From contig VBFH01000034.1 of assembly GCA_005883575.1 (NCBI GenBank), positions 1-64,000 on the forward strand: a DNA stretch of 64,000 nt, in the 5' to 3' direction. Positions 9,050-48,396 of the stretch are shown here, in pieces. The notes under the pieces were generated by a model. That model was not told the origin of the DNA, made no database searches, and was given only the letters and a program-made list of their open reading frames with translations. Made by a program: the position numbers and the translations under genes. Source of the DNA: Chloroflexota bacterium (lineage in GTDB: Bacteria; Chloroflexota; Dormibacteria; Dormibacterales; Dormibacteraceae). How positions within the stretch are numbered: the stretch's first letter is position 1; the number at the start of each line of letters is the position of its first letter.

Positions 9050-12395
<3,346 letters not shown>

Positions 12396-12399
<4 letters not shown>

Positions 12400-21726: not shown

Positions 21727-21797
21727 GGTCGTCTACTCAGAGGATATTCCGGTAGTCCCCACGAAATCCGAGGCTTCGCCTTGATTTCGCGGGGCCC

Positions 21798-23251: not shown

Positions 23252-23278
23252 AACCCGACGGGTCGAACTGGATTGGTT

Positions 23279-24337: not shown

Positions 24338-24405
24338 CTCTTTATCCCTTCACCAAATGCACGGTCATGCCGCGTACGCGGGCTCTGCCCCACAAACAAT
24401 TCTAT

Positions 24406-25446
24406 TTACCTCCTCCCAATTGGCAAATCCGAATTTCTCGGCGCCGATGTCGAACCCCGGATTACAAGGCTTGTGTTGAGCGGCGCCGGCGAGTCCACTC
24501 CGCGTCCTTTCATGCGCTCGATCAGCATGCGAGCGGCAAGACGGCCCTTCTCGACGATCGGCTGATGAACCGTCGTGAGCGGCGGGTTGGTCCAGGCAGA
24601 GAGCGGAATGTCGTCGAATCCGACCACGGAGAGGTCCTCGGGCACCCTCACGCCGGCCGCCTGCGCTGCGTTCATGACGCCGATCGCCGCCATGTCGCTC
24701 ATCGCCAGCAGGCCGGTGGGTTGACGCTTACCCCTGGGTAGGGACTCGAACGCCCGCGTGCCGCCTGCTATCGAGACCCCGGCCGTAACCGTCTCCGGCG
24801 GCGGTGCGCCGGCGGCTTCGAAGGCGGCATGGTAGCCCGCCAGCCGCCTGGTTGCGGTCGGTGTGCTCTCCACCTGTGAGCGTGCCGGCGGCAAAAGCAC
24901 GATCGTCACGTTGCGGTGTCCCTGCTGGAGGAGGTGCTTGGCGGCCGCCTCGGCGCCGCCCCGATCGTCGACGTTGACCACGGGATGCCCGAACGAATCC
25001 TCGGAGTCGATCAGCACGGTCGGGATGCCGATGCCGTCCAGAACCTCGAACGCGCGATCGTCGGGGCTGAGGCCCAGGCTGATGAATCCATCGACAGAAG
25101 CCTGACGGATTGCGCTCTCGAGCGACCCGTCGAGCGGCGGCACTAAGAGAAGCGTGAGGTCGTGCTCCTCGCACAGCTCACCCAGGCCCTGGATCAGCTC
25201 GCTCAGGAACGGGTTGGCAAAAACCGTGGACAGGCGCTGCGGGATCAGCACGCCGATCGTGCCGTTGCGCCGCATGGAGAGCGCGCGGGCGGCGGGGTGA
25301 GGCGTGTAGCCGAGGTCGCGGGCGACGCCGAGCACGCGCTCCAGCGTGGCATGTCCCAGCCGCTCCGGGTTGTTGAACGCGAACGACACGGCCGTCTTCG
25401 AGACGCCGGCCGCGCTGGCCACGTCAGCGATGGTGACCCGGGACAC
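24406..25446 (-). CDS. LacI-family transcriptional regulator 1
   Basis: A 346-residue sugar-responsive repressor. The N-terminal HTH VTIADVASAAGVSKTAVSFA and hinge region YTPHPAARALSMRRNG are standard, followed by a periplasmic-binding-protein-like effector domain (IGVLIPQR to VHQPIVEKGRLAARML). It ends 68 bases before the UgpC-type ATPase and probably controls it. The start is GTG at 25446. A perfect 31-base dyad lies just after its own consensus promoter, indicating autoregulation. Confidence 0.94.
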   Translation of the reverse strand: MSRVTIADVASAAGVSKTAVSFAFNNPERLGHATLERVLGVARDLGYTPHPAARALSMRRNGTIGVLIPQRLSTVFANPFLSELIQGLGELCEEHDLTLLLVPPLDGSLESAIRQASVDGFISLGLSPDDRAFEVLDGIGIPTVLIDSEDSFGHPVVNVDDRGGAEAAAKHLLQQGHRNVTIVLLPPARSQVESTPTATRRLAGYHAAFEAAGAPPPETVTAGVSIAGGTRAFESLPRGKRQPTGLLAMSDMAAIGVMNAAQAAGVRVPEDLSVVGFDDIPLSAWTNPPLTTVHQPIVEKGRLAARMLIERMKGRGVDSPAPLNTSLVIRGSTSAPRNSDLPIGRR

Positions 25447-25485
25447 CCACCAAGGCTCCTGGCATCGGCATCAGCGCTCCCCACG

Positions 25486-25516
25486 CTATAAACCGCTTTA
25501 TTAAAGCGGTTTATAG
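25486..25516 (-). promoter_or_regulatory. Operator of LacI regulator 1 (perfect dyad)
   Basis: The arms CTATAAACCGCTTTA (25486-25500) and TAAAGCGGTTTATAG (25502-25516) are exactly complementary with a one-base centre. It starts immediately downstream of the -10 element, so bound repressor would block initiation. AT-rich flanks in GC-rich DNA make it stand out. Confidence 0.8.
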
Positions 25517-25517
25517 G

Positions 25518-25546
25518 ATCGTATGCGCCACCGGGAAATCTGTCAA
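25518..25546 (-). promoter_or_regulatory. Promoter of LacI regulator 1
   Basis: On the minus strand a perfect -35 TTGACA (25546-25541) is followed by a 17-base spacer and -10 TACGAT (25523-25518). The transcription start would fall inside the palindromic operator, leaving a 5' leader of about 65 bases before the GTG. Confidence 0.75.
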
Positions 25547-25620
25547 GGGTGATTTTCGCCATCCGCCGGCGGTTTGTGCAGGCGCGCCTCGCCTAAGACC
25601 AAGGAGAGGGAGCTCGATCC

Positions 25621-27261
25621 TCACCGCCGTTTCGGAGTTTGGGTCATGGGTCGCAGGCGGGCTGGATCGACTTTGGGTTCCCGCTGGGCGGTGAGCAGAC
25701 CGTTCTGCTCCTGCTCGACGTCGGTGAGCTGCGTGTAGCAGAAGCCTTCGACCGGTCCACGCTGCATGAACGCTGCGATCAGCTGCCCGTACGCCCCGAC
25801 AAACGCGGCGTCATCGGGCACCTCCAGCCAGCCCCAGCCGCCTGAGCCGGCGAGCCGCAGGCCGCCGAACTCGCTGACGATGATCGGCTCCCCGCGGTAG
25901 CCGAAACCGGGGTCGTATGGCGGATGGGCGCTCCCGGTCCCGTCCAGCGCGGTCTCGACGCTGCGGTAGCGCCGCGCGAGGTCTGCCGGCGGCGAGTAGT
26001 CGTGGAGCGTGCACAGATCGCTCAGCGAGTGCTCCCAGCCGTCGTTGGAGACGACGGGGCGGGACTCATCGAGCTCGCGCGTGATTCGCCGGAGGCCCGA
26101 GGTGAAACCCGAGCGAACCCCTGCGTCGACCCCGTCGAGGCCGAAGCTTTCATTGGCTACGACCCAGGTCACGACCGAGGGGTGATCGCGGTCGCGGCGC
26201 ACTATCTCCGTCCACTCCGCGGCCAGCCGGCGCATCGCCTCGTCCGAGAACTGGTGGAAGCTGGGCATCTCCGCCCAGACGAGAAAGCCGAGGACGTCCG
26301 CCAGATAGAGCCAGCGCGGGTCTTCGGCCTTCTGGTGTTTGCGCGCGCCATTGAAACCGAGCGCTTTGGCCAGCTCGATGTCACGTCGTAGATCCTCGAT
26401 CGACGGGGCCGTCAGCAGCCCTTCCGGAAAGTAGCCCTGGTCGAGGATCAGGCGCTGGGTTAACGGCTCGCCGTTCAGCCAGCAGCGCCCGTCGCGGACC
26501 TCCACCTTGCGCAGGCCGAAACATGTGCGCACGAGATCGGCCCCAAGTCGCACCTCGACCCCGTAGAGCCGGGGGGACTCGGGAGACCAGGCCTCGACCT
26601 CGTCAAGCCGGATTCGACCGCCGCCGTTGCCGGACCAGCGGCCAACGTCTTCCTCATCCAGGTCCACGACCACGTCTGCAGGGCCGTCCGCGTCGATGAC
26701 GACGTCCACCGCGCCGGCGTCGAGGTCCGGGGTCAGCCGCACGCCGCGGACGTGATGCGCCGGCAGTGGCTCGAGCCAGACGCTCTGCCAGATCCCGGTG
26801 GTCGCGGTGTAGAAGATTCCCTCCGGCGTCTCGGTCCAGTGCTGCTTGCCGCGCGGGATCGTCTTGTCAGCGAGCGGATCCTCCGCGCGTACCACCACGA
26901 CGTTGTCGCGCGCCCGCACCGCGGCAGTGATGTCGGCGGTGAAAGGCGAGTGCCCTCCCTCGTGCCGCGCGACCTCGACGTCGTTCACCCACACGATCGC
27001 CTGGTAGTCGACGGCCCCGAAGTGGAGGTGCAGCCGATCGGCGCCCGGGGCGTCGAAGCGCCGCCGGTACCAGACCACGTCACCCACGCGCTCGCCTATG
27101 CCGGAGAGCGCCGACTCCGGGCAGAACGGAACCACGATCCGGCGGTCGAACACCGGGTTGGCGCCGGCGCCAAACTCCCACTCGCCATCGAGGCTCGACC
27201 ACTCCTCCCGCCGAAGGTTCGGCCGCGGGTACTCGGGTCCGGGTCCCACTGTGCCCTCCAC
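25621..27261 (-). CDS. GH2-family glycoside hydrolase
   Basis: Retaining beta-glycosidase (galactosidase/glucuronidase/mannosidase superfamily), about 546 residues from the chosen GTG. Domains in order: sugar-binding jelly roll (YPRPNLRREEWSSLDGEWEF, VVWYRRRFDAP, HLHFGAVDYQAIVWVND), immunoglobulin-like sandwich, then TIM barrel. The acid/base is in VTWVVANESFG and the nucleophile in IIVSEFGGL. There is no signal peptide, so the substrate is probably an imported oligosaccharide. ATG at 27297 would add 12 residues but would place the LacI-2 operator and a possible -10 (TATTAT) inside the coding region, so GTG 27261 is preferred. It is divergent from LacI regulator 2. Confidence 0.88.
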   Translation of the reverse strand: MEGTVGPGPEYPRPNLRREEWSSLDGEWEFGAGANPVFDRRIVVPFCPESALSGIGERVGDVVWYRRRFDAPGADRLHLHFGAVDYQAIVWVNDVEVARHEGGHSPFTADITAAVRARDNVVVVRAEDPLADKTIPRGKQHWTETPEGIFYTATTGIWQSVWLEPLPAHHVRGVRLTPDLDAGAVDVVIDADGPADVVVDLDEEDVGRWSGNGGGRIRLDEVEAWSPESPRLYGVEVRLGADLVRTCFGLRKVEVRDGRCWLNGEPLTQRLILDQGYFPEGLLTAPSIEDLRRDIELAKALGFNGARKHQKAEDPRWLYLADVLGFLVWAEMPSFHQFSDEAMRRLAAEWTEIVRRDRDHPSVVTWVVANESFGLDGVDAGVRSGFTSGLRRITRELDESRPVVSNDGWEHSLSDLCTLHDYSPPADLARRYRSVETALDGTGSAHPPYDPGFGYRGEPIIVSEFGGLRLAGSGGWGWLEVPDDAAFVGAYGQLIAAFMQRGPVEGFCYTQLTDVEQEQNGLLTAQREPKVDPARLRPMTQTPKRR

Positions 27262-27274
27262 AGACGCTCGGTAG

Positions 27275-27286
27275 GCGAACGTTCGC
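27275..27286. promoter_or_regulatory. Operator of LacI regulator 2 at GH2/lacI divergent promoter
   Basis: GCGAACGTTCGC is a perfect 12-base palindrome between the GH2 and regulator starts. Its core CGAACGTTCG plus the flanking CCT recurs at 38023-38036 upstream of the ABC binding-protein gene. CATAAT/TATTAT at 27295-27301 could serve as the -10 element in either direction. Confidence 0.75.
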
Positions 27287-27327
27287 TTTCCGCGCATAAT
27301 ACCTGGAGCGTGAGGGAGTACAGGCCC

Positions 27328-28344
27328 ATGAGGCACGTCTCCGTCAAGGACGTCGCCGCTCGCTCGGGAGTCAGCTTCCAGACGACGAGCAAGGTGCTGA
27401 ACGGCGGCGGCTCGGTGTCCGAGACGACGCGGGCCCGGATCCTCCGGGCGGCGAGCGACCTCGGCTACGTGCCCAACCTCCAGGCGCGAAGCCTCGTCAT
27501 GCAGCGGACCCGCATCATCGGCCTGATCACGGGGGACTTTCGCGACCCGGGGCTGAGCCGGTGCCTTGCGGGCGCCGAGCAGGAGGCGCGCCGGCAGGGA
27601 TACGCGCTCCTCATCACAAGCATCGAGCCCGAGGGATCCCTCACTGAGTACGCCCTGCCCGCGATGATGGAGCGCCGCGTCGACGGGATCCTCCTCGCGG
27701 CGCCGCAGATGGAGGAGGACCGCGCGCTGAGCCACGTGCTGGACCGCACTCTCCCTGTCGTCAGCCTGCACCACATCGCGAGCAGCGATGTGACGATCGT
27801 CGCTCCCGACGACGAAGAGGCTGGCTACGTCGCCACACGTCACCTGCTCGAGCTCGGGCACACGGCGATCGGCGTCGTCACCGGGGTACGCGGGACACGC
27901 CAGACGCAGAGTCGGCTTCGCGGCTACCGGCGCGCGCTCGAGGAGTCGGACCTCGAGCTCGCGAGCGAGCTGGTCGCTGAGGGCGGCGGCGAAGTCGCCG
28001 GCGGCCTCGCGGTGATGCCGGACCTGCTCGCACGGCGCCCTGACCTCACCGCCGTGTTCTGCCACCACGACCTGGCTGCGATCGGCGCCCTGATCTCGCT
28101 GCGCGAGGCCCACCGGGCCGTGCCCGACGACTGCTCGGTCGTGGGATGCGGCGACCTCGACGCCGCCGCCTTCACGAGCCCGCCCTTGAGCACGGTCCAC
28201 GTCCCGTTCTACGAGACCGGCGCCGAGGCGATGCGCCTCCTTCTCAGGATGGTGGCGAACGGAAAGGCGAGCGGGGGCCGGATCATGCTTCCCGTGCACC
28301 TGATCGCGCGAGAGTCGACCTCGTCCGCGAGAGCACGCGCCTAG
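27328..28344 (+). CDS. LacI-family transcriptional regulator 2
   Basis: A 338-residue regulator with N-terminal HTH VSVKDVAARSGVSFQTTSKV, where TTSKV replaces the more common T-V-S-R/K-V. The hinge YVPNLQARSLVMQRT and a ligand-binding domain with IGLITGDF and VVGCGDLDAAAFTSPPLST follow. The start is ATG at 27328, preceded by GGGAG; an in-frame GTG at 27310 is an alternative. It is divergent from the GH2 gene, with the palindromic operator between them, and the same operator occurs at the ABC operon, so it probably controls uptake and hydrolysis of one oligosaccharide. Confidence 0.94.
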   Translation: MRHVSVKDVAARSGVSFQTTSKVLNGGGSVSETTRARILRAASDLGYVPNLQARSLVMQRTRIIGLITGDFRDPGLSRCLAGAEQEARRQGYALLITSIEPEGSLTEYALPAMMERRVDGILLAAPQMEEDRALSHVLDRTLPVVSLHHIASSDVTIVAPDDEEAGYVATRHLLELGHTAIGVVTGVRGTRQTQSRLRGYRRALEESDLELASELVAEGGGEVAGGLAVMPDLLARRPDLTAVFCHHDLAAIGALISLREAHRAVPDDCSVVGCGDLDAAAFTSPPLSTVHVPFYETGAEAMRLLLRMVANGKASGGRIMLPVHLIARESTSSARARA

Positions 28345-28445
28345 ACAGCTCAAGGAAGCGCTTCGTCAACGCGCACGAAACCTATCGCCGCGATTCTCGT
28401 TGTAAGCCGGATGAAATCATCGAACGCTCCCGCATCATTTCGGCC

Positions 28446-29492
28446 GTGACTCCACTCCGAATCGCCCAGGTCGGACTCGGTGCGCACGGCCGCAACTGGG
28501 CGAAACGGGTGCTCCCGGATATCGGCGAGGTCGAGCTTGTCGCCTATGTCGACTCGGACCCGCGCTCGCTCGACATCCTCCGCGAAGAGCTCAAGCCGCG
28601 GCCCGAGATGGTCTTCGAGTCGCTGAAGGAAGCGATCGCGGCGACGCATCCGCAAGCCGTCCTCAACACGACGGCTTTGCCCGGCCACGTGCCCGCGACC
28701 AGGACCGCGCTCGAAGCGGGCCTGCACGTGTTGGTCGAGAAGCCGTTTGCACCCAGCATCGGAGCGGCGCAGGAGCTGGTCGACATTGCCGCGCGCGGGG
28801 GCCTCGTCCTGATGGTCAGCCAGAACTACCGTCACTTCCCAGCGCCCCGGGCGATTGCCTCGCTCGTCCGCGACGCTTCACTCGGCAAGCTGCACCAGGT
28901 CTCGATCGACTTTCGCCGCTACTCGACCATCGGTCCGAACGGCCGCGGGCGCCATCACTTGGAGGACCAGCCGCTGCTGGTCGACATGTCGATCCACCAC
29001 TTCGACCTGTTGCGCATGATCCTCGGCAGCGAGCCAGAGCGCATCTACTGCGAGGCGTGGAACCCGAAGTGGACCGGGTTCAACGGACCGTCGACCACCG
29101 TCGCCTCGATCGCCTTCCCCGGAGTCGTGGTCAGCTACCGCGGCAGCTGGATCAGCGCCGGGCCGGTGACGCCCTGGGGCGGTCAGTGGAGCCTGGAGTT
29201 CGAGCATGGCGAGATCTTCTGGACGAACCGCGACGATGACATGACGCACGACAAGGTCGTGATCCGGCCGCGCGGCGGCAAGCCCCGCTCCGCTAACCTG
29301 CGACCGATGGCGAGAACCGGCCCTTGGGGAACCATCACCGAGTTCGTCGACGCGGTGCGCAGCGGGCGCGAGCCTGCGACTTCGGGTCGTCACAACCTCG
29401 GGACCATCGCGTTCGTGGCCGCCGCCGTCGAGTCGGCGACAGTACACGAGCCTGTATCGATCTACCGGGCCGGCGAAGCGCTTCCGATCTGA
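28446..29492 (+). CDS. Gfo/Idh/MocA-family oxidoreductase 1
   Basis: NAD(P)-dependent dehydrogenase acting on sugars or inositols; 348 residues. The Rossmann motif is [10 protein letters not shown] near residue 8, the family hallmark EKP is in [11 protein letters not shown], and the catalytic-domain HHFDLLRMI carries the expected His pair. The start is GTG at 28446, followed immediately by the Rossmann strand; no good ribosome-binding site is visible. It is first of a four-gene operon with one- and four-base overlaps (Gfo/Idh, ThuA, Gfo/Idh, epimerase). Confidence 0.92.
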
Positions 29493-30247
29493 TGGCGGCC
29501 GGCCGCCCCCTTCGGGTCACGGTCTGGAACGAGAACGTCCACGAGCGGCGTGACCCGTCCGTCAAGCGGATCTATCCCGACGGCATGCACGCCCCCATCG
29601 TCGAGGGCCTGCGCCGCGAGCTCGGCGGCGGCGTCTCGGCGCGCGTCGCGACGCTCGAGCAGCCCGAGCACGGTCTCTCAGAGGAGGCGCTTGCCGAGAC
29701 CGACGTCCTCACCTGGTGGGGTCACGCGGCGCACGATCAGGTCGATGACGAAGTCGTGCAGCGCGTGCACGCGCGGGTGCTGGACGGAATGGGCATCGTC
29801 GTCCTGCATTCGGGCCACTATTCGAAGATCTTCAAGCGGCTCATGGGCACGACATGTGCCCTTCGCTGGCGGTCGGACCCCGGTGGCGAACGAGAGGTCA
29901 TCTGGACGGTCAACCCGGCGCATCCGATCGCCGCGGGCATCCCGCAGCCGATCGTCGTCCCGCACCAGGAGATGTACGGGGAGTTCTTCGACATCCCTCC
30001 ACCAGGTGAGCTGATCTTCATCAGCTCGTATGAGGGAGGCGAGGTGTTTCGCAGCGGCTGCTGCTACCAGCGCGGCGCGGGAAGAATGTTCTACTTCGGT
30101 TCCGGCGACCAGGAGTTTCCCGTGTACCACCAGACGGACATCCAGCGTGTGATCGCGAACGCGGTCGCGTGGTGCGGCTGGACTGCGAAGGTCAACGACC
30201 TGCCTTCTGCACGGCAGGGGAAGTCCCAGCGAAACTGGTATATGTGA
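29492..30247 (+). CDS. ThuA-like protein
   Basis: Glutamine-amidotransferase-like fold protein of the ThuA family, 251 residues. Typical phrases are [11 protein letters not shown] at the N-terminus, [26 protein letters not shown] and [10 protein letters not shown], ending with [16 protein letters not shown]. ThuA was named for trehalose utilisation in rhizobia, and related proteins participate in 3-keto-sugar metabolism together with Gfo/Idh enzymes. The ATG at 29492 overlaps the preceding stop by one base (TGATG). The catalytic role is not established. Confidence 0.92.
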
Positions 30248-31371
30248 AATCCAGGGCCTTTGGCGAGATAGGCGCCGCCGTCGTGGGAACCGGATTCATC
30301 GGCGTGGTGCACGTCGAAGCGCTGCGAAGGCTCGGAGTCCAGGTTTACGGCGTCGTCGGCTCCAGTCGTGAGCGCGCCGCCTCGCGTGCACGCGAGCTGG
30401 GCCTGCCCCCGGCCTATGAAAGCTTTCAGGCCATGCTCGACGATCCGCGCATCGACGTGGTCCACATCACGTCGCCGAACCACCTGCATCACGAGCACGC
30501 GAAGGCAGCGCTCGCGGCCGGCAAGCACGTCGTATGCGAGAAGCCGCTGGCCATGACCTCGACCGAATCGGCGGACCTGTTGCAGCTGGCCGAGGAGAGC
30601 GGACGCGTGCACGCGGTCAACTTCAACCTCCGCTTCTACCCCGTGTGCCAGCATGTCCACGGCCTGATCGCGGATGGCGCTCTCGGCGATGTGCGCCTCG
30701 TTTCCGGCCATTACCTGCAGGACTGGCTCCTTCTCGACACCGACTGGAACTGGCGAGTGGACCCCGGACTCGGCGGCGATCTCCGTGCGGTGGCCGACAT
30801 CGGGTCGCACTGGATGGACATGACCACGTTCCTTTGCGGCGCGAAGATCACCGCCGTGATGGCCGACCTGACGACGTTTATCAAGCAGCGGAACGCGCGC
30901 GAGGTCAAAACCGAAGACGCGGCCACGATCCTGCTTCGATATCAAAACGGAGCTCGCGGCGCGCTCGCTGTCTCCCAGGTGAGCCCGGGACGCAAGAATT
31001 CACTCATCTTCGAGATCGACGGCTCGACCTCCGCGGCGGCATGGAACTCTGAACGGCCAGACGAGCTGTGGATCGGACATCGGGGACGTCCGAACGAAAT
31101 CCTCCTTCGCGACCCGGCGATCCTCAATGAGCAGGGACGCCGGGCGACGAGGCTGCCCGGCGGTCATGCGGAGGGATTCGCCGACACCTTCAAGGCGTTG
31201 TACGCGACGGTATACAGAGCGGTCGGTTCCGGGGCGCGCGGGGACGGCTACCCGACCTTCGCCGACGGCCACGACGAGATGCTGGTCTGCGAGGCGGTCG
31301 CGCGCAGCTCACGGGAGCAGCGCTGGGCCGAGGTCGATCGCTCGCGGCGCGCGGTCGGCACGCGCAAATGA
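30244..31371 (+). CDS. Gfo/Idh/MocA-family oxidoreductase 2
   Basis: A second sugar dehydrogenase of 375 residues. The Rossmann motif is [20 protein letters not shown] occurs in [14 protein letters not shown], and the catalytic domain has [13 protein letters not shown]. It is longer than its neighbour and distantly related to it. The start is GTG at 30244, overlapping the thuA-like stop (GTGA), so translation is coupled. The pairing with ThuA and a TIM-barrel epimerase suggests an oxidation - isomerisation - reduction route for an unusual sugar; the substrate is unknown. Confidence 0.93.
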
Positions 31372-32276
31372 AGCTCGGGCTGCTGACGGCGGCGTTCCCA
31401 GACCAGAGCCTGGAGCAGGTTGCGCGGTGGGCGCACGAAAGCGGCTTCGACGCGCTCGAGATTGCATGCTGGCCTTCGAGCGGAGGCGAGCGCCGCCGCT
31501 ACTCGGGCGTGTCCCACATCGACGTCGAGGACTTCGACCCGAAGGCGGTGCGCAAGCTGCTGGCCCGTTACAACCTGGAGATCTCCGCGCTGGCTTACTA
31601 CCCGAACAACCTGGACCCTGACGCCGCCGCGCGGGAAGCGGCAAACGAGCACCTGCGCCACGTGATCGAAGCCGCGCAGCGCCTCGAGGTCGACATCGTC
31701 GGCACCTTCGTCGGCCGCGACCAGCACCGCTCGGTGCAGGAGAACCTCACAGAATTCCAGCGTGTCTGGCCGCCGATCGTGCGCTTTGCGCGCGAGAGGG
31801 ACGTGAGGATCGCGATCGAGAACTGCCCGATGATCTTCTCCGCCGACGAGTGGCCCGGCGGTCGCAACCTCGCCTACTCGCCGGCGCTTTGGCGCCGCCT
31901 CTTCGAGATCGTCCCCGACGAGAACTTCGGGCTGAACTTCGATCCGTCGCACCTCGTGTGGCAGTTCATCGACTACACGCGTGCCGTGAGGGACTTTGCG
32001 TCCCGAATCTTTCACGTGCACGCAAAGGACATGGAGGTGGATCGCGACGGGCTCTACGAGCAGGGAGTGATGTCGCTCGGCATGGGGTGGCAGGTGCCGC
32101 GGCTTCCCGGCCTCGGCGAGGTTCGCTGGGACCGATTCCTCAGTGCGCTCTACGCCATCGGCTACGACTGGGTGGTCTCCATCGAGCACGAGGATCGCAA
32201 GTTCGAGGGCGAGCTCGAGCTGGTCCAGCGGGGATTTCTGCTCGCCCGCGACACGCTGCGACCGCTCATCGTCTAG
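31368..32276 (+). CDS. Sugar phosphate isomerase/epimerase (xylose-isomerase-like TIM barrel)
   Basis: A 302-residue AP-endonuclease-2-type TIM barrel. Recognisable segments are FDALEIACWP, DIVGTFVGRDQHRS, VRIAIENCPM with a metal-ligand Glu, LNFDPSHLVW with Asp and His, HVHAKDMEVD and WVVSIEHED. These give the usual E-D-H-E metal set. The ATG at 31368 overlaps the previous stop (ATGA). It is the last gene of the operon and its final 11 bases overlap the convergent MFS gene. Confidence 0.94.
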   Translation: MKLGLLTAAFPDQSLEQVARWAHESGFDALEIACWPSSGGERRRYSGVSHIDVEDFDPKAVRKLLARYNLEISALAYYPNNLDPDAAAREAANEHLRHVIEAAQRLEVDIVGTFVGRDQHRSVQENLTEFQRVWPPIVRFARERDVRIAIENCPMIFSADEWPGGRNLAYSPALWRRLFEIVPDENFGLNFDPSHLVWQFIDYTRAVRDFASRIFHVHAKDMEVDRDGLYEQGVMSLGMGWQVPRLPGLGEVRWDRFLSALYAIGYDWVVSIEHEDRKFEGELELVQRGFLLARDTLRPLIV

Positions 32277-38143: not shown

Positions 38144-39379
38144 ATGAGAGACGCCCTCAGGTTTCCCGACGGCTTTCTATTCGGCGCGTCGATCTCTGCC
38201 TACCAGACCGAGGGTGGCAACAGCAACACGGACTGGTGGTGGTGGGAGCACATCGCTGCCACGCCGTGCAGCGAGCCGTCGGGTGACGCCTGCGACTTCT
38301 ACCACCGCTATCGAGAGGACATCGCGATGCTCGCGGGCTTCGGGCTGAACTGCTTCCGGTTCGGTATCGAGTGGGCACGCATCGAGCCGGCCGAAGGCGA
38401 GTTCTCCCGCGCTGCCCTGGCCCATTACCGCCTAATCCTCGACGCGTGCCACGAGCACGGCATCACCCCGCTCGTGACCTTCGACCACTTCACGGTCCCG
38501 CGCTGGCTGCACGAGCACGGTGGCTTCGCGGCCGAGAACTTTCCCGCGCTCTTCGAGCGCTACTGCGCCCGCGCCGCCGAGGCGCTCGGGGATCGCATCG
38601 CCTACGCGTGCACGATCAACGAGCCGCAGGGCCTCGGATCGAGCGGGTGGCTGCTGGGCATCAACCCGCCGGGCCACACCGACGACCGCGAGGGTGCGCA
38701 GCGGGCGGTTGACAACCTGCTCGAGGGTCACCGGCGTGGGGCGGCGGCGATCCGCTCGCGGGCAGGGATACCAACGGGGATCACGCTCGCGCTTCCCGAC
38801 CTCCAGTACGAAGACGGTGCCCAGCCGGGCTCCTCCTCCCTCGAGCTGGAGTCGCGGGTGAGCGACTGGTTCTTCGAGCTCGCGCGCCAGGACGACTTCG
38901 TCGGCGTGCAGACGTACACACGGTTCAGATACGGCCCGGAGGGGCCGCGCAGCCCAGGCCACGACTGGAGTGACAGCACGCGCTACCTGGTCGAAACCGA
39001 CGAGACGACGCAGATGGGCTACGAGTACTACCCACGCGCGATCGGCGGCGCGATTCGCCGCGCCCAGCGCAGCTGCCCTGGCGTGCCGATCCTGGTCACC
39101 GAAAACGGGATCGCAACCTCCAACGATGAGAAGCGGATCGCGTACATCGACACGGCCTTGCGCGAGGTTCTGGCTTGCCTCGCGGAGGGCATCGACGTCC
39201 GCGGCTACCTTTACTGGTCGCTCCTGGACAACTTCGAGTGGGCGCTCGGCTACGCGCCCACGTTCGGACTGGTCGCGGTCGATCGCCAGAACTTCACCAG
39301 GCATCCCCGGCCAAGCGCCTCCTGGCTGGGTACCGTCGCCAGGGCCAGGGCACTGAGCGGGGTGGCTGAATCCGTGTGA
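38144..39379 (+). CDS. GH1-family beta-glycosidase
   Basis: Retaining (beta/alpha)8 glycosidase, 411 residues. The N-terminal signature FPDGFLFGASISAYQTEGG, acid/base YACTINEPQG and nucleophile VTENGIATSND are all present, with the usual LDNFEWALGY near the C-terminus. It is shorter than many GH1 enzymes (about 450). There is no signal peptide, consistent with cytosolic hydrolysis of beta-linked sugars brought in by the divergent ABC importer. It starts a plus-strand operon with the GAF-oxidoreductase and a debranching enzyme. Confidence 0.95.
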   Translation: MRDALRFPDGFLFGASISAYQTEGGNSNTDWWWWEHIAATPCSEPSGDACDFYHRYREDIAMLAGFGLNCFRFGIEWARIEPAEGEFSRAALAHYRLILDACHEHGITPLVTFDHFTVPRWLHEHGGFAAENFPALFERYCARAAEALGDRIAYACTINEPQGLGSSGWLLGINPPGHTDDREGAQRAVDNLLEGHRRGAAAIRSRAGIPTGITLALPDLQYEDGAQPGSSSLELESRVSDWFFELARQDDFVGVQTYTRFRYGPEGPRSPGHDWSDSTRYLVETDETTQMGYEYYPRAIGGAIRRAQRSCPGVPILVTENGIATSNDEKRIAYIDTALREVLACLAEGIDVRGYLYWSLLDNFEWALGYAPTFGLVAVDRQNFTRHPRPSASWLGTVARARALSGVAESV

Positions 39380-39395
39380 TGATCGCAACACCAAA

Positions 39396-42300
39396 GTGAT
39401 CCGCCCGCCGGTCGAAGCCAATTCCGGTCTTGCCGCGGTCCTCCGCGGCGTGATCGCGGACTTTCAGCACGCGTCGGGCGCGGAAATCGTTTCCGTCTTC
39501 CTTTATGAAGAGTCGACCCATACCTACTACGCGCCGTTCGCGACTGGACAGCCGCAGGAGAGCCTCCTCGACTCGCTGACCGACATGCATGAGCAGCTCA
39601 CCCGCTACCTTTCAGACGAGCGGCAGGGCAAGGTGCCGGACGAGCTCGGCGTCCACCAGTACGGATCGACCGTCTGGCTTACCGTCACACGCCAGCGCCT
39701 GGTCGCGCGCAATGCGCCGGCGGAGATCGACTCCACCTTCATCCGCCGCTACCAGGTCCAATCGACGCTTGGCCTGCCACTGCTGGTCGGCGACCGGCTG
39801 CTCGGCCTGATCTACCTGAACTACCGCAATCGGGAGCGCGCCCCGGACGACAGTCGCCTGCGAGAGCTCGAGCGGCGCGCCTCGACGGCGGCGGCGCTCA
39901 TCCAGAGCGCGCTCGAGGGCGCCGAGCGATCGGCGCTGGACGGCCTCTCGCGCCTGACCTCGCTGCTGACGACGCCCATCGGCGACGCGCGGACCGACGC
40001 CAAGGAGCTGCGTCGGCTCTTGTCGATCGCCCTCGCCGACCTGCTGATGGCAAGCAACCTCGACGGCGCGGCCATCTACCAATTCGGGCACCAGCGGTCC
40101 CACCTCGAGCTGGTCACGGCGCACCTGCGGGTCGCGGCGCCGACGCGGGTCGACCGAGTCGACGCTTCGACCGCCTGGGAATCGGCCCTGCACAAGACGC
40201 TCGACGAGGCGACCGCCGAGGCGGACCTGCATCCGGTCGCCAGCTACGCGCTCGGCCAGCCGGACGAGCCGCACGGCTATCTGGTCTTACTCAGCCGGGA
40301 CCCCCTCGCGACCGTGCGCCGCGCCCCTTCGACCGACGAAATGTTGAGGGCGGGCGCGCAGCTCATCGGTGGAACGCTCGCCTCCCAGCGGTTGATCGGC
40401 GAGCTCGAGAACAGCAACCGGCTGCTCAGCGCGCTGGGCGACATGACGGCCGCCATGCTCAAGCCGGGGGCCACGCGGCACGAGGTGATCGACGCGGTGG
40501 TCGGGCACCTGACCGATTCGCAGGTGCCGGAGTTCGACTTCAACTTCGCCACCGTCTACCTGCTCGAGGAGCGGGACGACGGCGCGATGGTCGTGCGCAT
40601 GGCCGCGGGCGCAGCCACAGGAGCGGCGATCGATGTGGCGGAAGCCCCGCGCGGAAGCTCGCGCGGAGCTCAGGCGCGGGTGCCGCGATGGGCGCTGGAG
40701 GAAGACCGCCTCCTCGCCGCGGACGACGTGCTCCTCTACTCGGCACGCGCGTGGCAGACGGTGATCGTCGGCCCGATGCCCGCCGCGGACCATGCCGACA
40801 TCATCTCGGGAGGCATACCAGTCCAGTCGGCCTGGACCGAGGTGCCCGTCGTATACAGCAACGGCACAGTGCTGGGCAAGGTGCTGGCGTGCCTCATCGG
40901 TGAGAAGGATCGTCCGCGCGGCGAGGAGGATGCGCCCTTCACGCTCGCCGGCGAGGTCTTCGAGCGAGGTGGGCACAAGGACCTGGTGCGAATCTTCGTC
41001 CCCTTCGGCACCGATCCGTCGGGACGCGCGAGCGGAGTGCTCGAGGTCGGCTATCACCGCTCTGACGCGCGCCGGCCGGACTGGGGCCAGGTAGAGGCCC
41101 TTCGAGCGGCCGCCGGGCAGCTCGCGGTGGCGGTCGAGACGGCGCGGCTCTATGAGGAGGCGCAGCGGCACGCCGAGCAGCTCGAGCTCGTCGCCGACGT
41201 GAGCAAGGCGATCGCAAGCTCGATCGACCTCGACCAGACGCTCACCCTCGTGGCCCAGAACCTGGTGCGACTCGTCGACGCATCGTTGTGCCAGATCGCG
41301 CTCTATGAAGAGGACCGCGAGGGCTGGTACGGCGCAGCCGCTTCGGACCTCGAAGAGCTCTGGCGGCGCCAGCACGGGGAGCGCTCCCAGACTTCGTTCC
41401 TGTTCGATGTCCTCGACCGCGAAGAGCCGGTCGTGATCGAGGACACGTCGGTCAGCGCCGACGTCGATCCCGCATACGTGCGCACGTTTGGCGTGCGCTC
41501 GCTGATGGCGCTGCCGCTGATCGCCGACGAGCAGGCGATTGGCGCTGCCGTGCTGGCCGAGCGCAACCGCAACCGGCGCTTTCGCCCCGATGAGGTGCAG
41601 CGCGCGCAGGCGCTGGCGGTGCAGGCCGCGGTGGCGATCAAGAACGCGCGCTTGCACGCGCTCGCCGAAGAAGAGCGCCACCTGCAAAAGGACTTCGTGC
41701 TCATCGGCTTTGGGCAGTGGGGGCAGAAGGCGTACCAGCACCTGCTCACGCTCAAGCAGTTCTTCAACTTCCGCACGCTCGTGGTGGAGCAGGATTCGCC
41801 GGGCGCACGGGATCGGCTCGGGGTGAAGGAAGAAGAAGTCAGGACGCATGGTGACTCCTTCTACTGGGACAGCCACGGCTCGCCGGCACACGACCAGCTC
41901 GAGCGCGAGCTGGAGTCGAGCTCTTACGTCATCACCTACATCGCGACCCCCGCCGCGACGCACCTCCAGACGCTCGCGCGCTACTACGACCTCAGCGACG
42001 TGGTCCTGATCGAGAAGCCGCTGGGCGCTCCGCCGGACGAATACCGCAAGTTCCTCGACACGGCGCCCGGCGGCGTGGAGATCGTCGCGGCCGACCACTA
42101 CTACTTCAAGCTCGAGGTCCGCCTCCTCGCGATGCTGCTGACGGAAGAGCGCACGCTTCGCAACTTCCTCGACAGCGTGGAAGAGATCCGGATCGAGATC
42201 CTCGAGGAGCAGCCGCTCACGGGCGCCGCGGCTGACATCGGCGTCGTCGCCGACCTGATTCCTCACGCCTTCGCCATCATCTCGCTGCTTACACCGATCG

Positions 42301-42827
42301 ACCGCATCAAGCTCGATGAGGAGGCGCCCCTGCTCATCGGCCGCCACGAAGGTTTGACCGGCCAGCGCGAAAGCTACGCGCGGATGAACGCTCACTTCGA
42401 CTATCAGGGCCGCGCGGTGCGCTTGGTGATCGAGGTCGGCAAGGGAGCCGAGAACGCGAAGTGGATCAAGCTCAGCGGCGAGAAACGCGCGGCCGGGCGC
42501 AGCCCGAGCTACAAGTTCGATTTCGGCAAGGGGGAGGCGATCGACGGCACGCAGGCGACCGTGCGCGCCGCGGTGCGACGCATCCGCGAGCCGGGCGTCC
42601 CTGACAACGCGCACCTGAACATGCTCCGGCACGTGATCGAAAAGCGGCATCCCGCGGTCGGCATCCTCTCGATTCGCGAGGCAATTCGCGCAAACCAACG
42701 CGTCCGCGACCTCGAGGCGATGGCGGTCGAGCTGCTGGCGCGAGAAGAGTGGACGAGCTATGCACTCGGATCACGGCCTGCATTCGAAGCGTCGGCAAAA
42801 ACAACCGCGATAAGCAGCGCCAACTAG
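39396..42827 (+). CDS. Multi-GAF sensor fused to a Gfo/Idh-like Rossmann oxidoreductase
   Basis: A 1143-residue protein of unusual architecture. Residues about 10-760 look like four GAF-type units, seen as FRRYQ-like FIRRYQVQSTLGLPLL (about 115-130), a second block to about 335, a third to about 590, and a fourth with VRTFGVRSLMALPLIADEQ near 700. A Rossmann oxidoreductase follows: GFGQWG at 771-776, EKP at 873-875 and DHYYFK at 900-905. The last two resemble Gfo/Idh and glucose-6-phosphate dehydrogenase active-site motifs. There is no kinase, cyclase or HTH domain. The start is GTG at 39396, 17 bases after the GH1 gene. A ligand-regulated sugar dehydrogenase is the simplest idea, but unproved. 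Confidence 0.88.
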   Translation: MIRPPVEANSGLAAVLRGVIADFQHASGAEIVSVFLYEESTHTYYAPFATGQPQESLLDSLTDMHEQLTRYLSDERQGKVPDELGVHQYGSTVWLTVTRQRLVARNAPAEIDSTFIRRYQVQSTLGLPLLVGDRLLGLIYLNYRNRERAPDDSRLRELERRASTAAALIQSALEGAERSALDGLSRLTSLLTTPIGDARTDAKELRRLLSIALADLLMASNLDGAAIYQFGHQRSHLELVTAHLRVAAPTRVDRVDASTAWESALHKTLDEATAEADLHPVASYALGQPDEPHGYLVLLSRDPLATVRRAPSTDEMLRAGAQLIGGTLASQRLIGELENSNRLLSALGDMTAAMLKPGATRHEVIDAVVGHLTDSQVPEFDFNFATVYLLEERDDGAMVVRMAAGAATGAAIDVAEAPRGSSRGAQARVPRWALEEDRLLAADDVLLYSARAWQTVIVGPMPAADHADIISGGIPVQSAWTEVPVVYSNGTVLGKVLACLIGEKDRPRGEEDAPFTLAGEVFERGGHKDLVRIFVPFGTDPSGRASGVLEVGYHRSDARRPDWGQVEALRAAAGQLAVAVETARLYEEAQRHAEQLELVADVSKAIASSIDLDQTLTLVAQNLVRLVDASLCQIALYEEDREGWYGAAASDLEELWRRQHGERSQTSFLFDVLDREEPVVIEDTSVSADVDPAYVRTFGVRSLMALPLIADEQAIGAAVLAERNRNRRFRPDEVQRAQALAVQAAVAIKNARLHALAEEERHLQKDFVLIGFGQWGQKAYQHLLTLKQFFNFRTLVVEQDSPGARDRLGVKEEEVRTHGDSFYWDSHGSPAHDQLERELESSSYVITYIATPAATHLQTLARYYDLSDVVLIEKPLGAPPDEYRKFLDTAPGGVEIVAADHYYFKLEVRLLAMLLTEERTLRNFLDSVEEIRIEILEEQPLTGAAADIGVVADLIPHAFAIISLLTPIDRIKLDEEAPLLIGRHEGLTGQRESYARMNAHFDYQGRAVRLVIEVGKGAENAKWIKLSGEKRAAGRSPSYKFDFGKGEAIDGTQATVRAAVRRIREPGVPDNAHLNMLRHVIEKRHPAVGILSIREAIRANQRVRDLEAMAVELLAREEWTSYALGSRPAFEASAKTTAISSAN

Positions 42828-42854: not shown

Positions 42855-44828
42855 ATGATTTCGGCCGGGCAGCTGATCTCCGAGCGCGTGATGCTCAAAC
42901 GCGACCGTTTTTTCAGCGTGTCCGCGAGGGACGGATCGATGAGGCCCGGCGAGTTTCGCGGAGACGGCCTGTGGGACGGCGACACACGAATCCTTTCCAC
43001 GCTGCGATTGCTGATCAATGGCATCGAGCCGCGGGCGGTGCATTTCGAGACCGATGACAGCTCGGCGACCTTCGAGCTCGAAACCGTCGGCGTGCACGTG
43101 TCCCGTGTGCGGTTCATCGAGTCGGGAATGCACGAAAGAATCACGATCACCAATCCGGGCGCGGCGACTGTCGATGCGGTGCTCGAGATCGAGGTCGCGG
43201 CCGATTTCGGCGCGATGCTCGGAATTCGAGGGGCGGTGCCGAAGCTTGCGGCGCCGCAGCCTTTGCCGCCGGTCAAGACCGTTGACGGGGTGCGGTTTGA
43301 GCATTCCCACGGTGGAACTCGCGTGCTCGCATTTCCCGAAGGCCTGAAACACCAGATGCGCCTCTTGCCAGGCGACGAGTTCACGTTGCGTCTCGACGTC
43401 GTTCGCGACATGGGAGAGCCGATCATCGATTTCGTCGCCGGTCTCGACGAAGCCAGGGCGGCCTATCCCCGATGGGTGGCGGAGTGCATGTCCGTGCACA
43501 CCGACAACCCGGCGCTCAACGAGCTCCTGGAGCAGGCCACCGCGGACATCCGCATGCTCTGCAACCGATACGAGACTGGGATCTATCCGACGGCAGGACT
43601 GCCCTGGTTCGCGGTGCCATTCGGCCGCGACTCGCTGATCAGCTCGATCCTTCTGCTCCACTTCAACCCCGACCTGGCGCGCGGCGTGCTGCGCTACCTT
43701 GCCAAGCACCAGGGCACACGCGTCGACGACTACAGCGAAGAGCAGCCCGGCAAGATCCTCCACGAGGTGCGCGACGGCGAGGTGGTGGAGCGCGGTCTGT
43801 GGCCGCACATCCTGTACGGCACGGTCGATGCGACCGCGCTCTTTCTTTGCGCACTGACCGAGACAGAGACCTGGACTCACGACCACGGGTTCGCGGACCA
43901 GCTCTGGCCGGCGGCCGAAGCGGCGCTTCGGTGGTGCACGGACTACGGTGACTCCGACGGCGACGGGTACCTCGAGTACATGGGCGGTCTCGCGCGCAAC
44001 GAAGGCTGGAAGGACTCCGACAGCTCGCTCACCAACACCGACGGCACTGACGCATCGCATCCCGCCGCGCTGTGCGAGGTGCAGGCATACCTGCATCGGG
44101 GGCTGGTGGGCATGTCGCGGCGCAACCCCAGGCTCAAGGAGCACGCCACCGTCCTCAAGCGGCGCTTCAACCACGACTTCTGGATGTTGGACTCGAAGTA
44201 CATCGCTCAGGCCCTCGATGGCTCGAAGCACCAGGTGCAGGCTGTCACTTCGAACCCCGGGCACTGCCTGTGGATGCGAATCCTCGACCGCGTGAAGGCG
44301 GGGCACGTGACGCGGCGCCTGCTTGCGCCCGACATGTTCTCGGGCTGGGGCATCAGGACTCTGTCCGAGCGCGCCGTGAACTACGACCCGTGCAGCTACC
44401 ACAACGGTTCGGTGTGGCCCTTCGACTCCGCGCTGGCGGTGGCGGGGATGCGGCAGTACGGATTCGCCGCCGAGGCCGAGCGAGTCGCTCGCGCGCTCAT
44501 CGAGGCGTCGATCGAGCTTCCTCTGCGCCGGCCCCCAGAGCTCTTTTGCGGCGACGAGCGCGCGCCGGGCGAGCCGCCCAGTGAGTACTGGAACACCTGC
44601 ACACCGCAGCTGTGGTCGGCGGCCGCGATGTTCGCGTGCGTCGCCTCCATCCTTGGGCTCGAGGCGAACCCGAGCCGCAAGACGCTGCGCATCGCACCCA
44701 TCGAGACAGGCCTGTGGAACCGAATCGAGGTCACCGGATTACATTTCGCCGGCCAGCGCATCGACTTCGCGGTCGAGGGCACCAAGGTGAAGGCCGGCCG
44801 CCTTCCCGCGGGAGTGCGAATCAGCTGA
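42855..44828 (+). CDS. Glycogen-debranching-type amylo-alpha-1,6-glucosidase 1
   Basis: A 657-residue protein with an N-terminal beta-sandwich of the bis-GDE_N type (FRGDGLWDGDTRILSTLRLLING) and a C-terminal (alpha/alpha)6 barrel. The barrel motifs are GLPWFAVPFGRDSLISS, DSDGDGYLEYMGG, GWKDSDSS and PYSYHNGSVWPFD-like YDPCSYHNGSVWPFD. The family hydrolyses alpha-1,6 branch points or related linkages in glucan. It lies 28 bases after the GAF-oxidoreductase gene and is probably co-transcribed with it. Its last eight bases overlap the convergent glycosyltransferase gene. A paralogue is at 46084-48396. Confidence 0.9.
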   Translation: MISAGQLISERVMLKRDRFFSVSARDGSMRPGEFRGDGLWDGDTRILSTLRLLINGIEPRAVHFETDDSSATFELETVGVHVSRVRFIESGMHERITITNPGAATVDAVLEIEVAADFGAMLGIRGAVPKLAAPQPLPPVKTVDGVRFEHSHGGTRVLAFPEGLKHQMRLLPGDEFTLRLDVVRDMGEPIIDFVAGLDEARAAYPRWVAECMSVHTDNPALNELLEQATADIRMLCNRYETGIYPTAGLPWFAVPFGRDSLISSILLLHFNPDLARGVLRYLAKHQGTRVDDYSEEQPGKILHEVRDGEVVERGLWPHILYGTVDATALFLCALTETETWTHDHGFADQLWPAAEAALRWCTDYGDSDGDGYLEYMGGLARNEGWKDSDSSLTNTDGTDASHPAALCEVQAYLHRGLVGMSRRNPRLKEHATVLKRRFNHDFWMLDSKYIAQALDGSKHQVQAVTSNPGHCLWMRILDRVKAGHVTRRLLAPDMFSGWGIRTLSERAVNYDPCSYHNGSVWPFDSALAVAGMRQYGFAAEAERVARALIEASIELPLRRPPELFCGDERAPGEPPSEYWNTCTPQLWSAAAMFACVASILGLEANPSRKTLRIAPIETGLWNRIEVTGLHFAGQRIDFAVEGTKVKAGRLPAGVRIS

Positions 44829-46083: not shown

Positions 46084-48396
46084 TCACAGTGCTCGTCCCT
46101 GATCCACCCCGATCTCGAGCCAGGAAGGCACCCCACGCACCACCTCCAACCCGTCGACGTCCCCATCCACCACATGCCGCCCGTCCGGCTTCCTCTCCAC
46201 CACCAACCTCACCTCATGCCTCCCCAGCCGCAGCTTCCGCAGCTCCAGCCGCGCGCACCACACCGGCAGCTCCGGCTCAAGGTAGATTCGCCCCGAGGGC
46301 ACGTCCGGCTCGAGCCCCAGCAGGATGCGGACCATGTGCAGCACGGAACCCGCCGCCCACGCCTGCGGCACGTTCGCCATCCGGTACGGCACGGGCACCG
46401 CGAACTCGCTCTTGGGCAAGCCCGCGAAGAGCTCCGGCATCTGGATGTCCTCAAAGCACATCACCGCCCCGAGCAAACCGTCGAGGATTGTCCACGCCTC
46501 CTCCGCCATCCCGTACCGGCGCAGCCCCGCGGCCGCGATGACGCTGTCGTGCGGCCAGACCGAACCGCGCTGATACGAGTGCGGGTCGTACGAGGGATGG
46601 CGATCGGACAGCAGGCGCAGCCCCCAGCCGGTGAACATGTCGGGCTGCATCAGGCGCCGCCCCGCCGCACGTCCCCGCTCCTCGTCGAGGATCCCCATCC
46701 ACAAGCTGTGTCCCGAGTTCGACACCACCGTGCGGACCGGCTTTTTGTTGCCATCGAGCAGGAACGCCAGCTCGCCCACATCGTCGAGCCAGAAGGAATC
46801 GATGAAGCGCCGCCGCAGCTCTGCCGCCTCGCTGCGCAGCCGAGCCGCCGTCGCGTGGTCGCCCCAAGCCTCGAAGAGCGGTGCGATTCGAGTCTTCGCG
46901 CCGTATACGTAGGCCTGCATCTCCGACGTGGCGATCGGCAGCTCGGGAAAGGCGCCGCCGTCGTCGAGCACGCCATCGTGCGCATCACGCCAGCTCTGGT
47001 TGCGATAGCCGCGCGGTGAGCGCGGCGCGTACTCCTGGAACCCGTCGCCGTCGCGATCGCCGTGGCGGTCGACCCATTCCAACGCGCGCTCCGCCGCGCC
47101 GCGGAAATCACCGAGCGCATCCGCATCGCCCGACCACCGAAAGTTCTCGGCCAGCAGCAACAGACATAAAGGTGTGGCGTCCGCGGTCCCGTAATAGGGC
47201 CGGTGCGGCACGATTCCGAAGTGCGCCCACTCCCCCACCCGAAGCTCGTGCGGGATCTTGCCTGGTTCGGCGTCGCGGTCGGGGTCGTCAACGTCCGACT
47301 GCCAGCGCGCCAGGTTTTCGAGCGTGCCCATCGCGACCGCGGGCTGCGCGACCATCGCCTGGATCGAAGCGATCAACGAGTCGCGACCGAACAGAGCCAT
47401 GAACCACGGGAGTCCGGCCGCCGGCATCCACCTGTCTTCATTAGAAGTGCGCCCTGCGCGCGCCCGGCGCGAGGTGTCCTGCTCATGGAGGCGCAGCGCC
47501 GCGAAGTCCTCGATCGCGCGCTCACACGCAAACTGCAGCCTGATGTCGGTGGGCTCGATCTGCGAGACGGACTGCCGCCAGCTGCGCGTGTGGCGCAGCG
47601 GGTCCCCGTCGCCCGCCTCGAACACGCAGCTGGCCGCCATCTCGGGGATCTGCTCGTCGGAGGTGAGCAGGTCGTACTGCAGGCAGATCTTCCACTCCTG
47701 GCCCGGGACCAGGTCCGCGGGGATGCGCAGCGCTCCGTTTGCGTACGTCATGCCGCCCGCGGTAGTGAGCGCCCGGACCAGACAGCGGCGGACAAAATCG
47801 TCGTTCTGGTAACGCGACTCGAGGCTTGCCGGGCCCACCCACCACGTGTTCAAGTCGGCGCGTCTCTGCCACGAGCGGTAGCGGACCTCGAACAGGTCCG
47901 CGAAGTCACTCTCGAGTGCGACCTCGAGGAGCACCGTCACCGATGTGCGCGTGTACGTGTGGAGCGTGATGTCTTCATGCATCTGGTGCAGGCTGATCAA
48001 ACGATCGAGCGTCAGCGCCACGCGTGCCTCGCGCATGTCGCCACCAGGGCCCGCGATGCTGTCGGCGACCATATGCCAGCGCGCGTGGCGAAACGAAAGC
48101 CTTACCGACGCCACCGAGTCGGGCCGCTTGCCGTTGAGCCTCAACTCGTGTCGTGAAACGAACCGCGTATCCGAATCGTAGAGACCGTATTCACCCTCCG
48201 AGCCGTGAGGGATCGCGCCCTGCTGGTCGGTGACGAGGAAGGTGGCGCCGTGATTGATCTTCACAGACGGGTGTGGATGGACGGCAGTGATCAGCGTCCG
48301 CCACGGCGCCATTTGCGTCTGGCCGTCGGCAAGCAATCGGGTCGGAGCTGTGGAGCGCGCGGACTTCGCGCGCGTGACTCGTTCGCGCTGGCTCAT
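46084..48396 (-). CDS. Glycogen-debranching-type amylo-alpha-1,6-glucosidase 2
   Basis: A 770-residue paralogue of the enzyme at 42855, with the same two-domain layout. The N-terminal sandwich has GLYDSDTRFVSRHELRLNG and the barrel has GLPWFMALFGRDSLIAS, DRDGDGFQEYAP, PYYGTADATPL and PHSYQRGSVWPHDSV. A basic N-terminal extension of about 30 residues and longer loops explain the extra length. It ends in a C-terminal sandwich (LPVWCARLELRKLRLG). The two paralogues flank the GT4 gene on opposite strands and may act on different branched glucans. Confidence 0.9.
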   Translation of the reverse strand: MSQRERVTRAKSARSTAPTRLLADGQTQMAPWRTLITAVHPHPSVKINHGATFLVTDQQGAIPHGSEGEYGLYDSDTRFVSRHELRLNGKRPDSVASVRLSFRHARWHMVADSIAGPGGDMREARVALTLDRLISLHQMHEDITLHTYTRTSVTVLLEVALESDFADLFEVRYRSWQRRADLNTWWVGPASLESRYQNDDFVRRCLVRALTTAGGMTYANGALRIPADLVPGQEWKICLQYDLLTSDEQIPEMAASCVFEAGDGDPLRHTRSWRQSVSQIEPTDIRLQFACERAIEDFAALRLHEQDTSRRARAGRTSNEDRWMPAAGLPWFMALFGRDSLIASIQAMVAQPAVAMGTLENLARWQSDVDDPDRDAEPGKIPHELRVGEWAHFGIVPHRPYYGTADATPLCLLLLAENFRWSGDADALGDFRGAAERALEWVDRHGDRDGDGFQEYAPRSPRGYRNQSWRDAHDGVLDDGGAFPELPIATSEMQAYVYGAKTRIAPLFEAWGDHATAARLRSEAAELRRRFIDSFWLDDVGELAFLLDGNKKPVRTVVSNSGHSLWMGILDEERGRAAGRRLMQPDMFTGWGLRLLSDRHPSYDPHSYQRGSVWPHDSVIAAAGLRRYGMAEEAWTILDGLLGAVMCFEDIQMPELFAGLPKSEFAVPVPYRMANVPQAWAAGSVLHMVRILLGLEPDVPSGRIYLEPELPVWCARLELRKLRLGRHEVRLVVERKPDGRHVVDGDVDGLEVVRGVPSWLEIGVDQGRAL

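Follow-up and report, generated by a model that had tools for sequence, protein, structure and literature searches.

GAF domains usually stand in front of signalling outputs, whereas glucose-6-phosphate dehydrogenase (G6PDH, or Zwf) and the Gfo/Idh/MocA oxidoreductases are enzymes that share a superfamily. In the G6PDHs of Leuconostoc and human, the histidine, tyrosine and lysine of a DHYxxK motif and the lysine of a later GK motif touch the sugar phosphate, and an aspartate and a later histidine are catalytic. The subject of this report is a gene in a 64,000-nucleotide stretch of a Chloroflexota genome (assembly GCA_005883575.1, contig VBFH01000034.1, hereafter the window), in which an array of GAF and GAF-like modules is permanently joined to an apparent central-metabolism dehydrogenase.

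39396..42827, + strand: GAF-dehydrogenase fusion gene, 1143 amino acids, GTG start, open reading frame (ORF)

In this gene a GAF array and a compact dehydrogenase form a single protein, and the fusion is strongly conserved. No description of a GAF domain fused to a Gfo/Idh/MocA protein, to G6PDH or to a dehydrogenase was found in the open-access literature searched; such an absence is weak evidence, and within the same bounds it agrees with the original prediction, made from the sequence alone, that no described system has this layout. The reading favoured here, with confidence a little above even, is that the protein is a soluble, signal-gated hexose-phosphate dehydrogenase in which the GAF array governs a compact G6PDH-type domain and which works beside a canonical Zwf.

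The fusion ORF contains no internal stops. The source genome of the window is 3.6 Mb in 127 contigs, and the locus has its close relatives in metagenome-assembled genomes of soil Candidatus Dormibacterota and Chloroflexi. A frameshift or assembly join, which the original prediction had named as the event that could have produced the fusion, is ruled out because tens of genomes that were assembled independently carry the gene as a single ORF, with full-length identities of 45-90%. In other words, homologues keep the fusion. The ORF limits were confirmed, as were the claimed positions of the GFGQWG, EKP and DHYYFK motifs.

What kind of enzyme is the C-terminal domain? A full-length AlphaFold2 model was built from 33 aligned homologues (mean predicted local distance difference test score, pLDDT, 81.5; predicted template modelling score, pTM, 0.44), and the enzyme region of this model was compared with solved structures.

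41676..42794, + strand: compact dehydrogenase with a predicted G6PDH fold, residues ~761-1133 (VIA-align, Foldseek, motifs)

The top VIA-align chain for this region was the G6PDH 8i37, with a Z score of 27.9 and a root-mean-square deviation of 3.7 over 357 of ~373 residues, and human G6PD aligned over 363 residues; the match takes in the C-terminal sheet domain of the G6PDH fold. The 50 best chains all fell on residues ~761-1134, and nearly all of them were G6PDH. The G6PDH chains scored Z 24-27.9, mostly over 330-365 residues and reaching ~1133, whereas the best Gfo/Idh chains scored Z 23.7-23.9 over 295-317 residues and reached ~1115. The leading rows are tied within ~1-2 Z, and since the two families share a superfamily, the margin between them counts for more than the mere match. 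The top 46 rows of Foldseek were all G6PDH (E 1.2e-14), and an independent, less confident model of the domain alone (pLDDT 69) again put G6PDH first. The compact dehydrogenase is thus predicted, on the strength of these models, to have the G6PDH fold, and its sequence retains the landmark residues of G6PDH. The claim of a sensor fused to a Rossmann dehydrogenase is borne out, as the C-terminal region takes an oxidoreductase fold in the predicted model.

The motifs appear to separate G6PDH from Gfo/Idh better than the fold does. Five of them are found in the domain.

41706..41723, + strand: GFGQWG, dinucleotide-binding glycine motif, residues 771-776; G771 and G773 invariant in 33/33 homologues, G776 in 32/33
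42012..42026, + strand: EKPLG, residues 873-877, invariant in 33/33; profile-aligned on EKPFG of G6PDH
42093..42110, + strand: DHYYFK, residues 900-905; D, H, Y, F and K invariant in 33/33; profile-aligned on DHYLGK of G6PDH
42252..42266, + strand: D953-x3-H957, likely catalytic pair, invariant in 33/33; aligns near RDMVQNH of G6PDH, with the spacing of Gfo/Idh
42369..42443, + strand: E992-S-Y-A ... G1015-K1016, counterpart of ETFVAL...RTGK of G6PDH; ordered motif in 33/33

The full ordered set (EKP[LF]G, DHYxxK, D-x(3,4)-H and E[TS][YF][AV]-x-GK) occurs in 33/33 homologues and in 20 of 24 Chloroflexota G6PDHs, and it is found in 0 of 13 Gfo/Idh proteins, all of which come from the same genome as the window. 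The E[TS][YF][AV]..GK motif alone is present in 33/33 homologues, 22/24 G6PDHs and 0/13 Gfo/Idh proteins, and it arose by chance in ~3 of 6600 shuffles. Likewise, DHYxxK was seen in none of these 13 proteins. K1016 would be the counterpart of the RTGK lysine of G6PDH, judged by motif and spacing only. Because the sugar phosphate of G6PDH is held by DHYxxK and the GK lysine, a hexose phosphate is favoured as the substrate, and because fold and motifs together point to G6PDH over an ordinary Gfo/Idh enzyme, a sugar phosphate is likelier than an unphosphorylated sugar. The original prediction had called the domain Gfo/Idh- or G6PDH-like; its oxidoreductase part stands, and the enzyme type is narrowed toward G6PDH.

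Several observations weigh against this assignment. There is no Pfam G6PD match above the cut-off: G6PD_N gave a best E of 0.026 in 4 of 16 members, and G6PD_C gave none. The domain falls ~100 residues short of the canonical G6PDH length, and beyond ~residue 970 no convincing profile alignment was obtained with either G6PDH or Gfo/Idh. Alignment by hhalign of the C-terminal half alone with either family, and global alignment to trimmed G6PDH, gave nothing usable. The motif patterns were written after the sequences had been inspected, the DHY motif had been one of the criteria for choosing the 24-member G6PDH set, and the 33 homologues share ancestry and are not independent. In addition, the pTM of the full model leaves the arrangement of its domains uncertain.

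Some of the contrary evidence favours a specific alternative, namely a C-terminal domain that belongs to the ordinary Gfo/Idh-type dehydrogenases, acts on an unphosphorylated sugar, inositol or a nucleotide sugar, and has merely converged with G6PDH in a few motifs. GFO_IDH_MocA (PF01408) is the sole family that the enzyme matched, and it did so weakly (20.7 bits for the whole protein and 22.8 for the domain alone, with a cut-off of 24). Over the Rossmann half, hhalign gave a probability of 91% for Gfo/Idh versus 68% for G6PDH, and a search of PDB sequences with enzyme profiles returned weak Gfo/Idh matches alone (best E 0.017-0.04). The D-x3-H spacing is of the Gfo/Idh type, the distance from EKP to the aspartate is 80 residues in the fusion and 78-86 in most Gfo/Idh proteins of the same genome, and Gfo/Idh folds reach Z 23.9. 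However, the two motifs missing from the 13 Gfo/Idh proteins are present in both the homologues and G6PDH, and G6PDH chains extend the structural alignment further toward the C-terminus. The Gfo/Idh C-terminal domains PF02894 and PF22725, which are present in the Gfo/Idh genes of the window itself, went unmatched in all 16 members scanned at E up to 1. Convergence of an ordinary Gfo/Idh enzyme seems unlikely on balance, although it has more in its favour than the two alternatives considered below.

The G6PDH-type reading also has to accommodate a canonical enzyme in the same cell. Canonical Zwf (PF02781) was present in every fusion-bearing genome checked, and 6-phosphogluconate dehydrogenase was present throughout the order. 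The fusion as a replacement for Zwf is rejected on this ground, and it is taken to be an extra enzyme because the carriers checked have Zwf already. That the carriers already own a Zwf also speaks against the favoured reading, since a second G6PDH is not required. Its activity would supplement the pentose phosphate pathway or a different step of sugar-phosphate metabolism. Alternatively, the dehydrogenase fold may have become a sensor or docking module that performs no turnover: on binding NAD(P)(H) or a sugar phosphate, it would signal to the GAF array or to a partner. Signalling is the usual role of GAF proteins, and catalysis in a cell with Zwf could be redundant. Yet the residues counted as catalytic in G6PDH and Gfo/Idh are all invariant (33/33), and domain scans of the fusion protein found no kinase, cyclase or DNA-binding output. 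A non-catalytic module is thus rated as improbable, and the domain is best read as a G6PDH-type enzyme.

The N-terminal part of the protein is organized as four alpha/beta modules in the AlphaFold2 model, with a long helix after each of them (152-192, 311-354, 563-608 and 731-760).

39429..39971, + strand: GAF-A, residues ~12-192, long helix at its end; Pfam GAF 1.3e-07, 32.7 bits, above cut-off; AlphaFold2 pLDDT mostly 85-94
39987..40457, + strand: GAF-like module B, residues ~198-354, long helix at its end; by order of secondary structure in the AlphaFold2 model only
40476..41219, + strand: GAF-like module C with insertions, residues ~361-608, long helix at its end; by order of secondary structure in the AlphaFold2 model only
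41229..41675, + strand: GAF-D, residues ~612-760; Pfam GAF_2 1.8e-16, 60-61 bits

The last helix of GAF-D leads directly into the first Rossmann strand at residue 765. The ~760 residues of tandem GAF domains that had been proposed are borne out for GAF-A and GAF-D by Pfam but not for modules B and C, which gave no Pfam GAF match in the window protein and are called GAF-like here, from the order of helices and strands in the model.

What might the array sense? A tandem GAF structure of PDE5A appears among the structural matches of the full-length model, and the GAF domains of DevS are the closest solved sequence relatives of GAF-D. A DevS-type haem GAF was considered and rejected for GAF-D, because the residue aligned near the haem-ligand histidine of DevS is not a histidine. 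A cyclic-nucleotide GAF was likewise rejected because the NKFDE-type motif, searched as N[KR]x(3-16)FxxxDE, matched in none of the 33 homologues; the cyclic-nucleotide control suggested earlier finds no support in these sequences and is probably wrong. Cys632 of GAF-D (window 41289-41291) is invariant in 33/33 homologues, and one may speculate that it takes part in redox or ligand chemistry.

All parts of the protein are under purifying selection, with a ratio of nonsynonymous to synonymous substitution (dN/dS) that is low throughout and has its minimum in the enzyme. In comparison with the relative L036, for example, the enzyme has dN 0.028 and dS 0.76, and the GAF regions have dN 0.055-0.109 and dS 0.79-1.11. 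Identity to the most distant carriers is 64-68% for the enzyme, 49-73% for GAF-D, 35-51% for GAF-C, 30-51% for GAF-A and 26-39% for GAF-B. Such a gradient would be expected if the output stays the same, the last sensor module changes little and the outer modules vary. The gradient bears on a further alternative, that the array merely oligomerizes or stabilizes the enzyme and carries no signal. The strong divergence of modules B and C (26-51% identity), their failure to match Pfam GAF and the missing known ligand motif in the array would agree with a purely structural role. However, every carrier retains the array, which is under purifying selection, and GAF-D, which adjoins the enzyme and bears the invariant cysteine, shows higher conservation than the other three modules. 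Such a role is accordingly rated very unlikely, the least probable of the alternatives weighed here, and the array is better read as a sensor.

The fusion is common in the order of the window, yet not essential. Some match was found in 42 of 42 genomes of the order, and the gene itself is carried by ~35 of the 42, a count made from the match table with long high-identity matches only. It is judged not essential because at least three genomes that are >90% complete (G018, G022 and G032) have no copy. Among 400 genomes sampled across the phylum, 26 gave a match: 20 in the family of the window, four of five in family f17, one in f5 and one weak. The weak match (G080, E 5.5e-8) was rejected as a carrier and is an ordinary Gfo/Idh gene. 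The fusion is also present in two Thermomicrobiales bins (L064 and L065). All real matches of the enzyme lay inside a long GAF-bearing ORF or were pieces left by frameshifts or contig ends, and among the order and phylum genome matches searched the enzyme domain never occurred by itself. A plasmid search gave nothing beyond partial Gfo/Idh matches at ~22-29%. In a tree of 33 full-length sequences, rooted at its midpoint and carrying no claim on transfer, f17 lies at one end and the family of the window forms one clade with Thermomicrobiales adjoining it. A contig labelled Acidobacteria (L050) holds the gene, with 86-87% identity to the Dormibacterota enzyme, and is possibly mis-binned.

The genes next to the fusion encode sugar-related enzymes.

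38144..39379, + strand: glycoside hydrolase family 1 (GH1) gene, Pfam PF00232 2e-74; 16 bp upstream of the fusion
42855..44828, + strand: debranching-type (GDE_N_bis / MGH1-like) gene, Pfam PF14742, PF22422 and PF06202; 27 bp downstream of the fusion

The original prediction placed the fusion in an operon with these two genes. The three genes share a strand and are separated by short gaps, and the sugar context is confirmed; the arrangement is kept only within the family of the window. There the fusion is usually flanked by GH1 and debranching-type genes, with an ABC sugar-type transporter and another debranching gene close by; most near relatives keep the GH1 neighbour, and roughly half of the near loci have the debranching-type one. 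Outside the family, sugar-enzyme neighbours include GH15 (L060), GH130 (L099) and transaldolase (L096), and non-sugar neighbours include EPSP synthase (L064) and, on the other strand, PEP carboxylase (L058). As a clue to function, the sugar-gene neighbourhood is suggestive only.

Other genes of similar character were observed. In L096, of family f17, the transaldolase-type gene (8278-9537) immediately follows the fusion on the same strand and hints at the pentose phosphate pathway. A second debranching-type gene (GDE_N_bis and MGH1-like) lies on the opposite strand of the window at 46084-48396 and is also kept in many near relatives. Further away, 8647-14312 and 19696-28353 form a glycogen/trehalose-type island, which comprises a 1250-residue ORF of TreS-maltokinase type (an alpha-amylase with a maltogenic C-terminal and a maltokinase cap domain), a CBM48 branching-enzyme type gene (GlgB), a GH15/trehalase-like gene and a GH2 gene. 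At 28347-32276, two ordinary Gfo/Idh genes precede one for a xylose-isomerase-like TIM barrel; these resemble sugar-oxidation clusters and are unrelated to the fusion enzyme.

How could the fusion protein work? We infer its catalysis, substrate, cofactor, GAF ligand and gating from the features above, the allosteric gating of the dehydrogenase by the array from the architecture; the original prediction was reasonable in suspecting it. In the proposed mechanism, two certain GAF domains and two probable ones, linked by long signalling helices, would sense a signal, and the state of the array would pass through the last GAF helix straight to the compact G6PDH-type catalytic domain. The Rossmann half with GFGQWG would bind NAD(P)+. 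A hexose 6-phosphate would most likely be oxidized, with glucose 6-phosphate as the first candidate; DHYxxK and the GK lysine would hold the phosphorylated sugar, and D953 and H957 would form the catalytic pair. The fusion would then be a second, conditional entry to sugar-phosphate oxidation beside Zwf, used perhaps when glycogen, trehalose or glycosides release glucose. The more specific proposal that a divergent compact G6PDH stands under the direct allosteric control of the GAF array, parallel to an ungated Zwf in the same cell, so that a small-molecule or redox signal switches hexose-phosphate oxidation within one polypeptide, is tentative and falls somewhat short of an even chance. If the gating is true, it would provide a direct, protein-internal link from a sensed signal to NAD(P)H production in soil bacteria of a lineage that is mostly uncultured, and a compact member with features of both families would be added to the G6PDH/Gfo-Idh superfamily.

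The fusion protein thus shares features with three known systems and differs from each. With GAF signalling proteins of the DevS/DosS, PDE5A, NifA and PtsP type it shares GAF-A and GAF-D, both above Pfam cut-offs, but its output is a dehydrogenase rather than a kinase, cyclase, phosphodiesterase or DNA-binding domain, and unlike DevS and the cyclic-nucleotide GAFs it has neither the haem-ligand histidine at the aligned place nor an NKFDE-type motif. With the Gfo/Idh/MocA enzymes (PF01408/PF02894/PF22725; PDB 4fb5 and 7bvk, GnnA) it shares the Rossmann half, EKP, the D-x3-H spacing, size and fold (Z up to 23.9), but PF01408 stays below its cut-off, PF02894 and PF22725 are unmatched, and the fusion has DHYxxK and the GK motif. 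Compared with G6PDH (Zwf; PF00479/PF02781; PDB 8i37, 1dpg and 2bhl), the fusion enzyme has ~373 rather than ~480 residues, D-x3-H rather than D-x4-H, and GFGQWG in place of the GASGDL-type NADP fingerprint that is seen in a Chloroflexota G6PDH; identity is 13-16%, Pfam G6PD stays below its cut-off, and the enzyme sits behind a GAF array. Nevertheless, in the predicted model it shares the G6PDH fold over nearly the whole domain, together with EKP[LF]G, DHYxxK, D..H and E[TS][YF][AV]..GK in the same order.

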